DNA of 64,000 nt from Pseudomonas lini (GTDB lineage Bacteria > Pseudomonadota > Gammaproteobacteria > Pseudomonadales > Pseudomonadaceae). The notes under the pieces were generated by a model, which saw nothing but the letters and a program-made list of their open reading frames with translations, was not told the origin of the DNA and made no database searches. Both the position numbers and the translations under genes were made by a program. The DNA lies in assembly GCF_964063345.1 (NCBI RefSeq), contig NZ_OZ061318.1, forward strand, positions 4,588,001 to 4,652,000, in the 5' to 3' direction. Of this stretch, positions 35,215-57,049 are shown one piece after another (position 1 is the first letter of the stretch; every line of letters begins with the position of its first letter).

Positions 35215-35520
35215 ATGACTCAAGAACCTAGCACCCTCTATGCCAAGCTGCTTGGTGAGACCGCATCTATTACCTGGAAAGAGTTGGAGCCGTTCTTCGC
35301 CCGGGGTGCCCTATTGTGGGTCGCTCCAGGCCTGGATTTGATCGCTGCGGCAGAAGCAGTGGCAACCGATGAAGGCGAGAAAGTCGCTGCCTGGCTGGCC
35401 GCCGACAAGGTCGCCAAGCTGTCTGAAACGCGGGCGCTGGATCTTTTCGAACGCGATCCGGAGCTGTGGGCCGTGGTGGTTTCGCCGTGGATTCTGATCC
35501 AGGAAAGGGCGACGAGCTGA
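35215..35520 (+). CDS. DUF2288 family protein
   Basis: 101 aa, soluble, mostly helical. It starts MTQEPSTLYAKLLGETASIT, with WKELEPFFARGALLWVAPGLDL and a C-terminal ELWAVVVSPWILIQE, the DUF2288 pattern; length fits. ATG 35215 was chosen because the family begins there, though the frame is open to 35092. Function unknown. Divergent from braC. Confidence 0.8.
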   Translation: MTQEPSTLYAKLLGETASITWKELEPFFARGALLWVAPGLDLIAAAEAVATDEGEKVAAWLAADKVAKLSETRALDLFERDPELWAVVVSPWILIQERATS

Positions 35521-35716
35521 ATGCTTGCACTTGATTGGTGCGCTGGTTTGCCAGTTAAAAGTGTGTAGGCGAGTAGCGTGATGGCATGTTGCCGTAGAGA
35601 AAGGCCACAGAAGGGTCTTGGCGAGGGTGACGTAAACGTAACGGGAACAGTTTATTGAGCAGCCGATGGGCTGCTTAATTGTTTCTGGATGTTGGGATTT
35701 GTGGTGAATTTTACGC
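35521..35716. other. Gap with a terminator-like hairpin, possible small transcript
   Basis: No reading frame is convincing. Near the end AGCAGCC-GATG-GGCTGCT (about 35658-35675) followed by TAATTGTTT forms a hairpin with a weak T tract, which could end the DUF2288 transcript or a small RNA. Evidence is limited to the hairpin. Confidence 0.3.
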
Positions 35717-35801
35717 CGCCATCGCGGGCAAGCCCGCTCCCACAGGTACTGCGTTTTTTCAAAGAGTACGCAGTCCTTGTGGGAGCGGGCTTGCCCGCGA
35801 T
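35717..35801. repeat. REPIN
   Basis: GCCATCGCGGGCAAGCCCGC at left and GCGGGCTTGCCCGCGATTGG at right, with CCCACAGG...CCTTGTGGGAG inside; it lies at the 3' side of the tubulin-like gene. Confidence 0.9.
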
Positions 35802-35816
35802 TGGGGTCAGTGCGGT

Positions 35817-38012
35817 TTAAGCGGTCTTACCCGTATGGTTATTCAAAGAAATAACCTTGGTCTTGCCAATCCGGTGACGGTAAATCTCGCGCAGATACTT
35901 GATCGCCTTCTTCACGCAATCCCGAGAGAGGCGGATGTCATTGATCGAGACAAACTTGTCCTTGTCGTTGATCAGCTCACGGTACTTCTTCTCGTACATC
36001 GGTTTGATCGCGTACCAGTTGGTATCGAGGATCTTCGCCGGGTTTTCGAATTCGTTGAGCAGTTCGTCGATGCGGTCTTCGTCGAAGTCTTCATGGATGA
36101 TGAAGTCCAGGATCGAGTTATCCAGTGTCTCGTCGAAGCGATACGGGTTTTTCGCGAAGCAGCGCTTGATGAAGGCGACGATCAGGGTCAGAAAGTCGTC
36201 CGACAGGCACGGGCTCTTGGCAATCAGGGTGGTTAGCGACAGGTTGGCCGAGGCGCCGATCACTAGCGCATAACGCTTGAGCGTGGTGTTGGGGAACAGG
36301 CTGTTGAGATGCGTCTTCAACCGGTTCAGGTCCATGTAGGACAGCTTGTAGTCTTTGGGCAAGGACACAATCGACACCACCGACGAGCAATTCTTGAAGA
36401 AGTGCAGGTCGTGCAACGCGGCTGCGTCATAGCCGGAATTCTTGTACTGCTCAAGCGAGGCGCGATAGCGCTTGGACTCGATCGGCAACAGGCTGATGCC
36501 TTCGATCGCCTGGGTGACCTTGTTGAAGTGCGGCAGGTCGATCGAACGGAAGAACAGATCGTCGATGTTCAGGCGCTGTGGCTCTTTCTCGAACACTTTG
36601 AACTTGTCGCTGCTCGGCGGCGGAGTTTCCGGCACCACGGATTCGGCGTAGGCAATCGCCACCGGGCCGGCCAGGCTCATGAACAGGTCGTTGGCGTCTA
36701 GCCGAATGGTTTCGCCGATGTCGATGCCGGCGCGACGGAAATAGTTCTGGTCGTAGTCGGTGGTGACCGCCTGCGCCGTCAGAATGTTGAAGATCTGCTG
36801 TGAGATGTACTGGTTGGCATGCTTTTCCATGGCATTGACATCAATGTTCTGGATGTTGCCGTCATCGCTTTCTTCGGCATAACGCATGATGTCGTTGGAG
36901 ATCAGCATCATCGCGTTCCATGGGCGGATACGGCCCATGACGCTGGCTTCGCTGCTGTCTTCATTGGCGAAGTTGTAGGAGAAGTCCCACTCTTCCGACA
37001 GATATTTGCACAGCAGACGGCCGGCGTTGATGTGCAGCGCCTCGGACATTTCGCTGCGGTGATCGGAAATGTTCGGCAGTACGCAAATGCCGCTGGTGAA
37101 GATCGGCTCGAAGACGAAGGAATGACCGCTCTTGCTGTCGTGCTCGTCCATCGGTTTGGTGTCGAACGTCTTGTTCATGTACGAGTGCTGCTGGGCCAGG
37201 CCGAACTCCGAGGCCATGCCCGAACCGGTACCGCCGCCAGCGCTGAAGATCGAGAAATACAGGCGCGACTGGTTGGCCTTGATCCCGCAGCTGTCGATCA
37301 GGTACGAGTGAATCATCTTCCAGTCAGGGCTGGAGAACCGCTGGGTGTCCTTGTTCAGGATGATCTTGGCCAGGTACTGGCCGAGGATCGGCGCGTTACC
37401 GGCGCCACCGGCGTGGACTTCCGACAAGTCCATGATTTTCATTTTGCTGTAGTCGCGCAAAAAGCCGCTTTTTTCGCCCTTGCGCGAGAAACGGATGCGG
37501 CCGGCGATGTCTTTGTCCAGGTCGCCGAGCATCACCAGCGGCTCGACCAGGAACACCGGTTTGCTGGCCTTGTTCGACCCCAGGCGCAGGTTGTTGCGGA
37601 TCCACTGCGCCGGGCTGTAGCCCTTTTCGGCGTAGCGTTTTTCCGGCGACAGGCGGTCTTCGTTGTTGAATTCGTTGAGGTAGAACTTGCGGGCGTTGTA
37701 CACCAGTTCCGCCACGTCCAGCGCGATGTTCGAACCGCAGCGGCCCAGGCCGATCAGGCACACCGACGGGAATTCCTGATCGCTGTGTTGTTCGCTGTCG
37801 CCTTCCAGATGGGGCGGGCGCGGGAACACCATGTCGCGCAGGCCGTCGAGGTTATCGAGAATGCGGTCGGTATTGGTTTCGGTGAAGTACAGGTATTGCT
37901 GAGTCGCCAGCGGACGCGACGGGGTCAATGGCTTCGACGATGAGGGGCTGTTCGCCGCGGGGCTCAGGGTCAGGTCGGATACCGCGGTGGCCGGATTGTT
38001 TTTAGAAGTCAT
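35817..38012 (-). CDS. Large tubulin/FtsZ-like GTPase (Tubulin_2 type)
   Basis: 731 aa from ATG 38012; starts at about 38057 or 38111 are also open, and no ribosome site is decisive. A low-complexity Ser/Pro N terminus (1-45) precedes a Rossmann-like start VCLIGLGRCGSNIA (residues 84-97; T1 loop). The T4 tubulin signature is exact: GGGTGSG at residues 259-265 (minus-strand codons 37238-37218). A T7-like segment RLDANDLF (about 437-444) carries the acidic residues that complete GTP hydrolysis in FtsZ-type proteins. Unlike FtsZ (~390 aa) it has a ~280-residue extra C-terminal region ending in a basic stretch (KKAIKYLREIYRHRIGKTK). No signal or membrane segment. It is a single-gene unit. Function unknown. 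Confidence 0.75.
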   Translation of the reverse strand: MTSKNNPATAVSDLTLSPAANSPSSSKPLTPSRPLATQQYLYFTETNTDRILDNLDGLRDMVFPRPPHLEGDSEQHSDQEFPSVCLIGLGRCGSNIALDVAELVYNARKFYLNEFNNEDRLSPEKRYAEKGYSPAQWIRNNLRLGSNKASKPVFLVEPLVMLGDLDKDIAGRIRFSRKGEKSGFLRDYSKMKIMDLSEVHAGGAGNAPILGQYLAKIILNKDTQRFSSPDWKMIHSYLIDSCGIKANQSRLYFSIFSAGGGTGSGMASEFGLAQQHSYMNKTFDTKPMDEHDSKSGHSFVFEPIFTSGICVLPNISDHRSEMSEALHINAGRLLCKYLSEEWDFSYNFANEDSSEASVMGRIRPWNAMMLISNDIMRYAEESDDGNIQNIDVNAMEKHANQYISQQIFNILTAQAVTTDYDQNYFRRAGIDIGETIRLDANDLFMSLAGPVAIAYAESVVPETPPPSSDKFKVFEKEPQRLNIDDLFFRSIDLPHFNKVTQAIEGISLLPIESKRYRASLEQYKNSGYDAAALHDLHFFKNCSSVVSIVSLPKDYKLSYMDLNRLKTHLNSLFPNTTLKRYALVIGASANLSLTTLIAKSPCLSDDFLTLIVAFIKRCFAKNPYRFDETLDNSILDFIIHEDFDEDRIDELLNEFENPAKILDTNWYAIKPMYEKKYRELINDKDKFVSINDIRLSRDCVKKAIKYLREIYRHRIGKTKVISLNNHTGKTA

Positions 38013-38208
38013 TGTGCGCCATATACCTGGACTGGTCGGCTCGGCGACAAGTGTCATCGAGTCATCACGGAATGAGATCTCGCGTCTTTTTGCAGCGCGA
38101 ATGTGGCCCAAGCGTCAGGGCTTGGGCCTGAGCATCGCTGGGGGAATCCTTTCCTTAATCATGATGAATCGGCCAATATTCGATGATCTTTAATCAAAAA
38201 GAGGCTAA

Positions 38209-39105
38209 ATGATGGCAGCGTTACCTTCGCTGGGGTTTGCCGGTATCGGCCTGATGGGTTTGCCAATGTGCCGACGCCTGTTGGCGGCGGGTTATCCGCT
38301 GACGGTGTGGAACCGCAACCCCGACAAGTGCGTAGCGCTGGTCGAGGCCGGAGCACGGCAAGTGGCGACACCGGCCGAATTGTGTCAGCACGCTGATGTG
38401 GTGATGCTGTGTCTGGCTGACACTGCCGTTGTACGTGAGGTGGTGTTTGGCCCGGCAGGCGTTGCCGAGGGGGCGAAAAGCGGCCAGTTGCTGGTGGATT
38501 TTTCCAGCCTGGAACCCACCGCGACGCGGGAAATGGCAAGCGCATTGGCCAGTAAAACCGGTATGAGTTGGCTCGATGCGCCAGTGTCCGGCGGGGTGGT
38601 CGGTGCCGAGGCCGGCAGCCTGGCGATCATGGTCGGTGGCGAAGCGGCAGACCTTGAGCGCGTGCGGCCGGTGTTGTTGACCCTTGGCCTGCGCGTGACC
38701 CACATGGGCGCCGTCGGTGCGGGGCAGGTGACCAAGGCCTGCAATCAGATGATCGTGGCCTGCAATGCCTTGGTCATTGCCGAAGTGGTGGCCCTGGCCG
38801 AGCGTTCCGGGGTCGACGCACGCCTGATCGCCGAAGCGTTGGCCGGTGGTTTTGCCGATTCAAAACCCTTGCAGATTCTCGCGCCGCAAATGGCCGAAAG
38901 CCGTTTCGAACCGGTGAAATGGCACGTGCGCACGCTGCTCAAGGACCTCGACACCGCCGTGAAATTCTCCCGCGAACAAGGCTCGGCCACACCGATCAGC
39001 GGATTGGCCGCACAACTGATGCGCCTCCATGGGGGGCAGGGGTTCCTGGAAAAGGATCCGTCGACGCTAGTGCAGCTATACCGCGAGCCAGACTCAGAGG
39101 ATTGA
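38209..39105 (+). CDS. NAD(P)-dependent oxidoreductase, 3-hydroxyisobutyrate dehydrogenase family
   Basis: 298 aa. N-terminal GFAGIGLMGLPMCRRLL is the GxGxMGxxM cofactor loop, with VWNRNPDKC after it (an Arg there favours NADP). DAPVSGGVVGAEAGSLAIMVGG is the substrate-binding signature, and the catalytic Lys lies in GQVTKACNQMIVACN (about 172). Relatives reduce or oxidise tartronate semialdehyde, 3-hydroxyisobutyrate or succinic semialdehyde; the substrate is not decided here. ATG 38209 and 38212 are both possible. The 3' end overlaps the convergent c-di-GMP gene by 110 bp. Confidence 0.85.
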   Translation: MMAALPSLGFAGIGLMGLPMCRRLLAAGYPLTVWNRNPDKCVALVEAGARQVATPAELCQHADVVMLCLADTAVVREVVFGPAGVAEGAKSGQLLVDFSSLEPTATREMASALASKTGMSWLDAPVSGGVVGAEAGSLAIMVGGEAADLERVRPVLLTLGLRVTHMGAVGAGQVTKACNQMIVACNALVIAEVVALAERSGVDARLIAEALAGGFADSKPLQILAPQMAESRFEPVKWHVRTLLKDLDTAVKFSREQGSATPISGLAAQLMRLHGGQGFLEKDPSTLVQLYREPDSED

Positions 39106-41311
39106 CGGTGTGCATGTGCTTGCGCTGATTGATTTCGGCCAGCACCGGACGCAACTCGGCCAGCGGCACCGGACGACTGAGCAGGTAGCCCTGAACGAAA
39201 TCGCAGCCGTGGCGTTCAAGAAAGTCGTATTGCTCGAAGGTTTCAACGCCTTCAGTGACGACCTGTAAATGCAGGGTGTGGGCCATGACGATGATGGCCT
39301 GGACGATTTCCATGTCCTGGGTGGCCTTGGGGATGTCCTGAATGAACGAGCGGTCGATCTTCAACGTGTTTAATGGCAGGCGCCTGAGGTAGGCCAGGGA
39401 TGAATAGCCGGTGCCGAAGTCATCGATCGACAACGAGACTCCGAGGGCGCGAATCTGCCGCAGCAATACCAGGGTGTTGCTGATATTGCCCATCAACGCA
39501 TTCTCGGTGACTTCCAGTTCCAGCCGGTGTGGCGCCACCCCGAAGGCGTGCAGGGCGTGTTCGATTTCATTGGCCAGTTCTTCTCGCGCCAGGTTCAGGG
39601 GCGAGCAATTCACCGCGATTTTGAGTTCTTCGCAATCGTGTCGGGACAGTTCGCCCAAGTCCTCGCAGGCCTTGCGCAGCACCCAGTTGTCCAGGTCGGC
39701 GATCAGGCCATTGGCTTCGGCAATGGCGATGAACCGATCCGGCGTGAGCAATCCGTGAACCGGATGCTGCCAGCGAATCAGTGCTTCAAGTTTGGTGACC
39801 TGGCCGATTCTCAGGTCATAGATGGGTTGGTAATACAGCATCAACCCGGTGTTTTCGCGCAGGGCGTGGCGCAATTCCTCTTCGAGTTGCAACTCCAGGG
39901 TGGCGCGGGTTTTCAGGTTTGAACTGAAAAAATGCAGGGCATTGCGACCGCAGTCTTTGGACTGGTACAGCGCCAGGTCGGCGTTTTTCAGCAGTTCTTC
40001 ACAGGTCTTGCCGTCTTCCGGAAACAGGCTGATGCCGATGCTGGTGGTCATGACCATGCGCCGTCCGGACAACTCGATGGGCTCCTTCATTTTCAGCATG
40101 ATGCGCTGGGCCATTTGCCGCGCTTCTTCACGGTCGTACAGGGTGATGAGGATGCAGAATTCGTCGCCTCCGAAGCGCGCCACCACGTCTTCGTGACTGC
40201 GTACCGAAGCCTTGATGTGGCCGGCCAGGACTTTGAGCAATTCGTCGCCGGCGTCATGGCCGAGGCTGTCATTGATTCGCTTGAAGTGGTCGATGTCGAG
40301 GAACATCACCGCCAGCATGCCGCCTTCGTTGGTTTTCTCAATGAGTTTCTCGGCGAAGATCTGGTTGAAGCCTCGGCGGTTGATCAGGTTGGTCAGGGGG
40401 TCGTAGTGCGCCACTTGTTGCAGCGACATGCGTGCCTGATCCAGTTGACTGAGCAGAGCGTTGACCCGCTGCAGGTCATGCTCCTTGTGTTGCAGCTTTT
40501 TGTCTGCCAGGGCAGCGCTGATGCTGCTGCCGATGATCAGCAGCGTCATCACCGCCACCGTCAACCCCAGTTGCAGGTGATTATTGTCGCTGGGCAGCGG
40601 CTGAAGGCTGCCAGCGGGCAGCACCAGGTTGAATGCCGCCATGCCGGTGAAATGCATGCTGACGATGCCGGCCCCGAGCACCAGGCTGGCGGTGTATTTG
40701 AGCAATTGATGAAACACGCCGGCGCCATCGCGCAGGTGACTGGAAATCAACAGGGCGGCCAGGCTGGCACCGATGGCGATCACAATGGAAAGCACGAACA
40801 GCACGGGTTGGTAGTAGGCCATCGCATTCGATCGCAGGGCGGCCATGCCCACGTAATGCATGGTTGCGATGCCCAGGCCGATCCACACCGCGGCCCGCAG
40901 GTATTGCCAGAAATTCAGCTGAGGATGGCTGAGGGTGTGCATGGCCAGCCACGAGGCGGTCAGGGCGAACAACAGCGAGAGCAGGGTAGTGGGCAGGTGG
41001 TAATGGATTTCGATCGGCGCCTGGAACGCCAGCATGCTGATGAAATGCATGGCCCAGATACCGCCTGCCAGGCACCCGGCACCGACCCAGCGCCAGAGTC
41101 GTTGGGAGGCGGATTTTTCCACATGACCGACCCGCTCGGTCATGTCCAGCGTGGCGAAGCCAGCCGCACAAGCGACCAGATAAGCCAGCAACACCAGAAA
41201 AGGGTTATGGGTGCAATTGAGTATGACCTGCCCGCTCTCCGGTAGCCCGGTCATGAAATGCAAACCAAGCCACTCCATAGCATGCCCCATCTCTGAATCA
41301 TCCTGCGCCAT
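38996..41311 (-). CDS. nbdA: MHYT-GGDEF-EAL c-di-GMP protein, NbdA-like
   Basis: 771 aa from ATG 41311 (ATG 41290 has AGGA upstream and is possible). The MHYT sensor (about 25-250) has seven helices and three M-H-x-x-x-M motifs, MHFISM, MHYVGM and MHFTGM, proposed to bind a metal or diatomic gas such as NO. The GGDEF domain is RFGGDEFCILI (intact). The EAL domain has LEALIRWQHP, the metal-binding IDDFGTGYSSLAYL and EGVET. Neighbourhood (3-hydroxyisobutyrate dehydrogenase-like gene on one side, rapA near) matches P. aeruginosa nbdA, whose GGDEF is degenerate (AGDEF). The dominant activity here cannot be read from sequence. Confidence 0.82.
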   Translation of the reverse strand: MAQDDSEMGHAMEWLGLHFMTGLPESGQVILNCTHNPFLVLLAYLVACAAGFATLDMTERVGHVEKSASQRLWRWVGAGCLAGGIWAMHFISMLAFQAPIEIHYHLPTTLLSLLFALTASWLAMHTLSHPQLNFWQYLRAAVWIGLGIATMHYVGMAALRSNAMAYYQPVLFVLSIVIAIGASLAALLISSHLRDGAGVFHQLLKYTASLVLGAGIVSMHFTGMAAFNLVLPAGSLQPLPSDNNHLQLGLTVAVMTLLIIGSSISAALADKKLQHKEHDLQRVNALLSQLDQARMSLQQVAHYDPLTNLINRRGFNQIFAEKLIEKTNEGGMLAVMFLDIDHFKRINDSLGHDAGDELLKVLAGHIKASVRSHEDVVARFGGDEFCILITLYDREEARQMAQRIMLKMKEPIELSGRRMVMTTSIGISLFPEDGKTCEELLKNADLALYQSKDCGRNALHFFSSNLKTRATLELQLEEELRHALRENTGLMLYYQPIYDLRIGQVTKLEALIRWQHPVHGLLTPDRFIAIAEANGLIADLDNWVLRKACEDLGELSRHDCEELKIAVNCSPLNLAREELANEIEHALHAFGVAPHRLELEVTENALMGNISNTLVLLRQIRALGVSLSIDDFGTGYSSLAYLRRLPLNTLKIDRSFIQDIPKATQDMEIVQAIIVMAHTLHLQVVTEGVETFEQYDFLERHGCDFVQGYLLSRPVPLAELRPVLAEINQRKHMHTVNPLSLARGIAALASTDPFPGTPAPHGGASVVRPIR

Positions 41312-41564
41312 GTACGCTGGCGAATGCTTGCAGTATAGAGGCCTTGCATGGAGCGCAAGAGGTGGTGGCATATTAGTGCCAATGTTTTTGGAATGGCTTT
41401 TAGAACGATTGGAAATAAATTGTTTCATGGCCCGCATGGGTGGCCATAGAGGGGTATCAGGATTACGAATAATTACAGACAGCGCTGGCGGGCCTGACTA
41501 GATTGACGGTTCCGGGCTCGATGCGTTGGCAGTGAAGCCCCAATAACAATAAAGAGACGGACCC

Positions 41565-42917: not shown

Positions 42918-43010
42918 CCATCGCGGGCAAGCCCGCTCCCACAGGGCTTCGGGTGAATATAAACTTTGTGAGCAACCGAGATCATTGTGGGAGCGGGCTT
43001 GCCCGCGATG
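42918..43010. repeat. REPIN
   Basis: GCCATCGCGGGCAAGCCCGC at the left and GCGGGCTTGCCCGCGATGAG at the right; separates the convergent MFS and rapA genes. Confidence 0.9.
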
Positions 43011-47135: not shown

Positions 47136-47227
47136 GTGTGGGAGCGAGCCTGCTCGCGATGACAGTGTCCGGCGCGATGAAAATGTTGACTGATTAGCCG
47201 CTATCGCGAGCAGGCTCGCTCCCACAG
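47136..47227. repeat. REPIN (GAGCGAGCCTGCTCGC type)
   Basis: GTGTGGGAGCGAGCCTGCTC and GAGCAGGCTCGCTCCCACAG bound a ~92-bp palindrome between convergent genes. Confidence 0.9.
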
Positions 47228-56955: not shown

Positions 56956-57049
56956 CCTGTGGGAGCGGGCTTGCCCGCGATAGCGTTGGGTCAGTCACCA
57001 TTAATGCTGGATATGACTCAGTCATCGCGGGCAAGCCCGCTCCCACAGG
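56956..57049. repeat. REPIN between pcaG and pcaT
   Basis: CTGTGGGAGCGGGCTTGCCC and GGGCAAGCCCGCTCCCACAG are perfect arms. It divides the cluster into pcaIJFHG and pcaTBDC and could limit read-through. Confidence 0.92.

Follow-up and report, generated by a model that had tools for sequence, protein, structure and literature searches.

A conserved FtsZ-like protein of Pseudomonas assigned to the FtsZl2 family and its possible role as a stand-alone scaffold

The members of the tubulin superfamily characterised so far in bacteria and phages organise large things: the division ring, plasmids and the centring of phages. The window analysed here, a 64-kb stretch of a Pseudomonas chromosome, encodes a 731-residue protein with a tubulin-type signature in a genome that also has a normal FtsZ. 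What is this protein, and what might it do? A second, larger probable relative of FtsZ, showing strong conservation in the P. fluorescens group as well as in other Gammaproteobacteria, marks a concrete gap in knowledge.

The gene and the parts of its product

The gene, called FtsZl2 below, lies on the minus strand (35817..38012) and runs from 38012 to 35817 as 731 codons plus a stop codon; its assignment is based on ORF analysis, the family alignment and a low median dN/dS (see below). Translation from the ATG at 38012 gives 731 residues; the open frame reaches further upstream, as far as a TTG at 38111, which would give 764. Two Marinomonas-type copies (675 and 676 residues) begin near residue 34 of the window protein. 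Residues 1–40 (37893..38012, minus strand) form a variable Ser/Pro-rich tail that is barely alignable among 18 sequences, and the 87-sequence family alignment starts at residue 36 of the window protein (offset +35). A frame of six codons (ATGGCGCACAATGACTTCTAA; 38002-38022, minus strand) overlaps the putative start codon. The consensus of 80 close relatives retains most of this short frame, which may encode a leader peptide or have arisen by chance. The region upstream of the gene is conserved in patches across 80 loci, but these are all close relatives and no regulatory motif is therefore claimed. A sigma-70 scan of 35600-38300 found no site, with 1.2 expected.

The reading frame and the three motifs named in the preliminary description were confirmed in place. 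The T1-like loop GLGRCGSN comprises residues 88–95 (37728..37751, minus strand), the T4 loop GGGTGSG residues 259–265 (37218..37238, minus strand) and the T7-like RLDANDLF residues 437–444 (36681..36704, minus strand), the last of which was placed by eye and did not emerge from the piecewise profile comparison. Gly-88, Gly-90, Gly-93, Asn-95, all of residues 259–265, Asp-439 and Asp-442 are invariant in the 87 sequences and Arg-91 nearly so, an invariance that is less telling because many columns of this alignment are invariant. Two further elements were labelled by eye: a T6-like LISND (residues 370–374; 36891..36905, minus strand), which is crossed by a sub-threshold PF13809 match, and an H7-like ANQYI (residues 399–403; 36804..36818, minus strand), in which Asn-400 is invariant and which profile comparison did not recover. 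Because the fold was not recovered here, the T6, H7 and T7 labels rest on the published description (PMC2875224), the sub-threshold PF13809 match in the case of T6, and reading of the alignment.

The C-terminal region (residues 445–731; 35820..36680, minus strand) matches no Pfam family above cut-off. Some of its stretches have a block-mean pLDDT of 82–91, within an AlphaFold model of low overall pLDDT. It had been described as an extra region; 287 residues do follow the T7-like motif, but they probably include the equivalent of the C-terminal domain of FtsZ itself, and 'extra' may overstate the case.

Similarity to the tubulin superfamily and family membership

In hmmscan the window protein matches PF00091 (Tubulin) with an E-value of 0.0032 and 18.2 bits, below the cut-off of 33, and PF13809 (Tubulin_2) with an E-value of 0.0047 and 16.7 bits, below the cut-off of 27. 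The genome's one normal FtsZ scores 169 bits against PF00091, compared with 18 bits for FtsZl2. Both sub-threshold matches fall on the motif regions. In hmmscan PF00091 positions 113–128 lie on residues 253–268, around T4. In the whole-genome scan PF00091 covers first the T1 region (profile positions 2–34 on residues 84–115) and then the T4 region, and PF13809 spans residues 203 to 374, through the T6-like SND. Among 20 diverse family members scanned at E<=0.1, PF00091 was matched in 19 and PF13809 in 16; in the same scan the unrelated DUF6562 reached an E-value of 0.00076 and matched 6 of the 20, which places the PF00091 and PF13809 E-values near noise. An NCBIfam scan of the protein gave two rows, both at noise level, PADLOC and PHROGs scans gave no match, and searches of the PDB by sequence or profile gave no significant match (all rows at E 0.85 or worse).

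Structure prediction and profile tests did not recover the fold. Two AlphaFold runs reached a pLDDT of 33 and 45, lowest in the GTPase region, and Foldseek and VIA-align found no usable structural match for these low-pLDDT models. Alignment of the FtsZl2 family with FtsZ by hhalign gave a probability of 1.9% (E 0.026), and a second comparison 3.8% (E 0.011). In a profile comparison with FtsZl2, 30 FtsZ sequences had a median score of 24.8, under the 95th percentile of 116 decoy ORFs (25.9; decoy median 17.6, maximum 33.4), and the top two ranks were taken by decoys. The six Tubulin_2 entries of this test (median 17.55) were the longest frames left per locus, three of them far shorter than the reported frame, so their row is not usable. 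One of ten FtsZ pieces, T4, fell at its expected place on FtsZl2 when profiles were compared piecewise, and the reversed T4 piece scored 28.3 versus 31.0 for the true one. A genome search with the back-translated GGGTG[ST]G pattern of T4 gave two sites, ftsZ and the FtsZl2 gene, and the reversed pattern gave six, which makes the T4 motif alone weak evidence.

These failed tests, and a reversed pattern no rarer than the forward one, are what would be expected if the protein lay outside the tubulin superfamily and GGGTGSG were a chance glycine loop. Such a loop would not readily account for PF00091 matching T1 and T4 in order and PF13809 extending from T4 to T6, albeit sub-threshold, in most members scanned, or for the published HHpred match of the P. 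fluorescens Pf-5 protein PFL_1302 to PF00091 (E=0.0033; PMC2875224), and we regard the chance-loop explanation as improbable. A tubulin-like GTPase fold is inferred with high, if incomplete, confidence. The kinship with tubulin and FtsZ advanced in the preliminary description thus stands as far as PF00091 and PF13809 support it, with both scores below the Pfam cut-offs.

The family was described in 2010 by Makarova and Koonin as FtsZl2 ("FtsZ-like 2"), typified by PFL_1302 (PMC2875224). According to the accessible part of that paper, T1, T4, T6, T7 and H7 are present, there is no coiled coil and there are no linked genes, and the C-terminal region of ∼300 residues is predicted to be mixed α/β and to be devoid of relatives; its authors count all filament elements as present and predict filaments. 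The window gene almost certainly belongs to this family, a membership judged against the published description and the number of T4 sites in the genome. That genome belongs to the species group of Pf-5 and has no T4-pattern sites other than ftsZ and this gene, which makes PFL_1302 very probably an orthologue of the latter; the inference also draws on the genus scan, which returned one FtsZl2 match per matching genome and two matches in three genomes. On this sub-threshold sequence support, FtsZl2 would constitute a gammaproteobacterial branch of the FtsZ/tubulin superfamily.

Two earlier assignments have to be replaced. The protein had been taken for the Tubulin_2 type, yet it falls short of the PF13809 cut-off and the published family that fits is FtsZl2, which is separate from FtsZl1. 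It had also been presented as an unrecognised orphan, and the accessible part of PMC2875224 describes the family from the P. fluorescens group; the family has been known since 2010. PF13809 itself was passed in 6 of 398 genomes, with matching open frames of 462–1540 residues. A study from 2023, in its accessible part, ties the Makarova-Koonin FtsZ-like proteins that it found to Tubulin_2 and sets them aside as divergent (PMC9871819). A search of the open literature, a scope outside which most subscription papers lie, found no functional follow-up on FtsZl2, PFL_1302 or Tubulin_2.

Locus, distribution and transfer

The flanks of the gene are ordinary. Pfam assigned the eight genes scanned to a branched-chain amino-acid transporter and its binding protein, DUF2288, a 3-hydroxyisobutyrate-dehydrogenase-like protein, an MHYT-GGDEF-EAL protein, an MFS transporter and RapA. 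The DUF2288 gene (35215..35520, plus strand) lies on one side, and the divergent dehydrogenase gene (38209..39105, plus strand; identified by Pfam and locus comparison) on the other. In the best 80 of 451 Pseudomonas loci, chosen by FtsZl2 similarity and not a random sample, the dehydrogenase gene was present in all 80 and DUF2288 in 79; nine genes sought were in identical order in 69, and each of the remaining 11 missed one or more within the stretch covered. A head-to-head REP pair (REPIN-like; 35724..35798) stands directly behind the FtsZl2 stop codon. The REP-type element (GTGGGAGCGGGCTTGCCCGC, up to three mismatches) has 14 matches in the 64 kb versus 0.02 expected, including those at 35724-35798, 42923-43006, 47138-47225 and 56959-57046.

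When the genes of 26 loci from many genera were clustered, FtsZl2 was recovered in 25 (at the other, L198, the ORF caller had picked a longer antisense frame), and no other gene family occurred in more than five neighbourhoods. Families in at least three loci stayed within Pseudomonas or the family f203, except for an ABC-transporter ATPase found in L115 and three Pseudomonas loci; a few pairs also cross genera, among them the GGDEF proteins of L093 and L116. Pfam analysis of 20 of 30 immediate neighbours gave varied enzymes, transporters and two GGDEF proteins, with four left unassigned at E<=1e-5. In two unrelated loci (L116:5568-8630 and L184:11016-12908) FtsZl2 directly adjoins a GGDEF or GGDEF-EAL gene on the same strand, and the GGDEF-EAL gene of the window (38996-41437) is one gene away; as GGDEF genes are common, the adjacency may be due to chance. 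A phosphofructokinase family gene (Pfam, tested in L190) adjoins FtsZl2 in all four f203 loci examined (L117, L190, L191 and L192), and the rest of the L190 neighbourhood differs from the other f203 loci.

FtsZl2 is under purifying selection. Its median dN/dS of 0.033 (n=80 relatives) was the lowest of seven genes compared at the locus, a value biased low because the 80 loci were picked by FtsZl2 similarity. The medians of its neighbours were 0.044 for RapA (n=72), 0.046 for the MFS transporter (78), 0.072 for the dehydrogenase (76), 0.074 for the transporter ATPase (79), 0.118 for braC (79) and 0.161 for the GGDEF/EAL gene (74).

Three protein searches with FtsZl2 queries returned 667, 651 and 645 matches at E<=0.001, the best 120 of each being 77–97%, 73–100% and 69–99% identical to the respective query. 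The matches listed included Pseudomonas, Ectopseudomonas, Marinomonas, Rheinheimera, Arsukibacterium, Celerinatantimonas, Agarivorans, Aliagarivorans, Corallincola, Alkalimonas, Motiliproteus and Paraglaciecola, among others. Chromobacterium, which appears in a figure legend in the accessible part of PMC2875224, was absent from the matches listed here. Within the genus, 194 of 298 Pseudomonas genomes had a match and 104 did not. The class sample gave matches in 3 of 369 genomes, counting the genome itself and one chance partial match. In the phylum sample 9 of 398 were strong matches, six of them in the same genus (its own genome included), and the other 12 of the 21 matches listed, at E-values of 0.15–0.82, were taken as chance. 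The order of G1023 had 27 matching genomes of 247, which include a broken copy in G1023 and a partial one in G1148. The 'core chromosome' location claimed previously is therefore right in being chromosomal, and too strong in view of the genus count.

Genomes lacking the gene offer a view of the empty site. DUF2288 was present and adjoined braC in all 20 of the 104 FtsZl2-lacking Pseudomonas genomes that were examined, and in five of these 20 the dehydrogenase gene adjoined DUF2288 with no FtsZl2 between them. In one such genome, G406 (DUF2288 91% identical), a base-by-base reading showed that the flanks align to the window and that ∼230–240 bases stand in place of the 2.7 kb of the window; it found no FtsZl2 remnant. 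Partial copies are present in G436 and G623. Together with the broken G1023 copy, these sites argue that FtsZl2 is dispensable over evolutionary time, with the G406 site reflecting either loss or a gene never gained. At the broken locus (L117, 8693-11108) a 210-residue frame, resembling an SGNH/GDSL hydrolase by eye, lies between the two FtsZl2 parts. Another FtsZl2-bearing genome encodes a second FtsZ-type protein (L220, G1066:C22:2640-3560), a 347-residue frame 36% identical to the FtsZ of the window genome.

FtsZ and FtsZl2 were compared across 30 genomes. Within Pseudomonas FtsZl2 is the less conserved of the two (86.2 versus 91.9% identity; more identical in none of 36 pairs), and in comparisons of Pseudomonas with the other genomes the order is reversed, FtsZl2 being the better conserved (70.2 versus 61.3%; 189 of 189 pairs, not independent of one another). 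Among non-Pseudomonas genomes it was more identical than FtsZ in 107 of 182 between-family and 7 of 28 within-family pairs. In the FtsZ tree (FastTree) the Marinomonas-type genomes (f185, of the same order) join Pseudomonas with a support of 0.957. The FtsZl2 tree places them instead with the Celerinatantimonas/Agarivorans-type family f203, with supports of 0.994 and 1.0, 'Agarivorans-type' being a guess for the remainder of f203. AU tests, applied to FtsZl2 only and all after the tree had been seen, rejected Pseudomonas plus f185 as one clade (lnL difference 245, p 2e-57) and f203 alone (p 0.0008), marginally rejected Pseudomonas alone (p 0.016) and did not reject f192 alone (p 0.165). The conflict between the two trees suggests horizontal transfer.

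No carrier was seen. Neither 72,556 plasmid records nor 50,697 phage records nor a scan of viral contigs yielded an FtsZl2 match; together with the ordinary flanks, these empty searches bear out the earlier statement that the gene is chromosomal and free of phage or plasmid carriage. A mobile origin is not supported, and a plasmid or phage role is unlikely given that no such carrier was found.

A patchy, horizontally spread, stand-alone gene could also act in single-gene anti-phage defence through a tubulin-like assembly, and tubulin-domain proteins do occur in predicted conflict systems (PMC7159879, accessible part). The conflict-system tubulins described there sit with GTPase and vWA genes, whereas none of 28 Pfam-scanned FtsZl2 neighbours (8 in the window and 20 elsewhere) is a vWA, kinase or GTPase gene. 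PADLOC was likewise empty for FtsZl2 and for the 10 of 30 immediate neighbours tested. The very low dN/dS and the same flanking dehydrogenase gene in all 80 selected Pseudomonas loci also speak against defence, which we consider very improbable.

The protein might instead regulate or co-polymerise with the cell's own FtsZ in division under special conditions, being of the same superfamily and accompanied by FtsZ in all 29 FtsZl2-bearing genomes tested. FtsZl2 is, however, missing from about a third of the genus genomes scanned, lies far from the ftsAZ operon and has a tree that departs from that of FtsZ. Since FtsZ was present in each of these 29 genomes and FtsZl2 is often missing, a division role is unlikely, and we give the co-polymer only a slim chance.

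A possible mechanism and comparison with known systems

The best explanation, in our view somewhat better than an even bet, is that the window gene is an FtsZl2 orthologue whose product forms a head-to-tail GTP-dependent polymer and serves as a stand-alone conditional scaffold beside FtsZ. Cytoplasmic FtsZl2 would bind GTP through its T1/T4/T6 side, subunits would stack head to tail, and Asp-439/Asp-442 of the next subunit would trigger GTP hydrolysis at the contact. The C-terminal region may mediate lateral contacts or the binding of a host factor, and with the inserts it would provide a geometry or partner of its own. The protein would act beside ordinary FtsZ, free of a dedicated operon partner, as a useful, non-essential component; its partner, if any, would be a host factor common to these bacteria. 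The invariant T1, T4 and T7-like residues and the strong constraint fit a GTP-bound head-to-tail subunit, and a GTP-dependent polymer is fairly likely. A self-sufficient scaffold, to which we give an even chance, would agree with a dispensable gene that has spread horizontally and has no operon.

A tubulin-like GTPase may also function as a monomeric or small-oligomer switch or enzyme that does not polymerise. The inserts are long, with 171 residues between T1 and T4 versus 88 in a compared FtsZ, and RLDANDLF lacks the Asn that starts NVDFADV of that FtsZ. Both T7-like Asp residues are nevertheless invariant in the 87 sequences, and the filament elements were all found by the 2010 authors (PMC2875224, accessible part), which leaves a non-polymerising GTPase as an unlikely candidate. 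Extending the polymer reading, we tentatively envisage FtsZl2 as a second, autonomous cytoskeleton of the tubulin type in Gammaproteobacteria. It would consist of a single gene with no operon partner that has moved between families with no carrier seen; it would be under strong purifying selection in some lineages and cleanly absent from others, and the geometry of its polymer would depend on inserts and a C-terminal region of its own.

The protein is real, conserved and uncharacterised, and its strong conservation and stand-alone gene make it a good experimental target rather than a discovery. Deletion of this single unlinked gene would disturb no operon, and naturally lacking species serve as negatives. 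New here are the genus count, the named relatives, the neighbourhood survey, the G406 empty site, the broken copies, the tree conflict, the absence from mobile collections and the dN/dS values.

TubZ and PhuZ share the tubulin superfamily signature with the window protein and are about half its length. They are carried by plasmids and phages, unlike FtsZl2, which had no match in the plasmid, phage and viral records searched. FtsZ has in common with the window protein the T4 signature GGGTG[ST]G and a T1-like loop; the window protein differs from it in being nearly twice as long, missing from many genomes, unlinked to ftsA and far weaker in its PF00091 score. The likeness to FtsZl1/Tubulin_2 is the weak sub-threshold match from T4 to T6, under the curated PF13809 cut-off; most FtsZl1 proteins carry an extended coiled coil, and their operons often include vWA, kinase or GTPase genes (PMC2875224, accessible part). 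The closest counterpart is FtsZl2 as published: by its description in the accessible part of PMC2875224 no difference from the window protein was found, with T6, H7 and T7 placed here by eye or from a sub-threshold match. The two are alike in the T4 signature, the T1-like loop, the marginal PF00091 similarity, a C-terminal region of ∼300 residues with no known relatives and the absence of linked genes, and the published family, as in this analysis, is common to Pseudomonas and Marinomonas.
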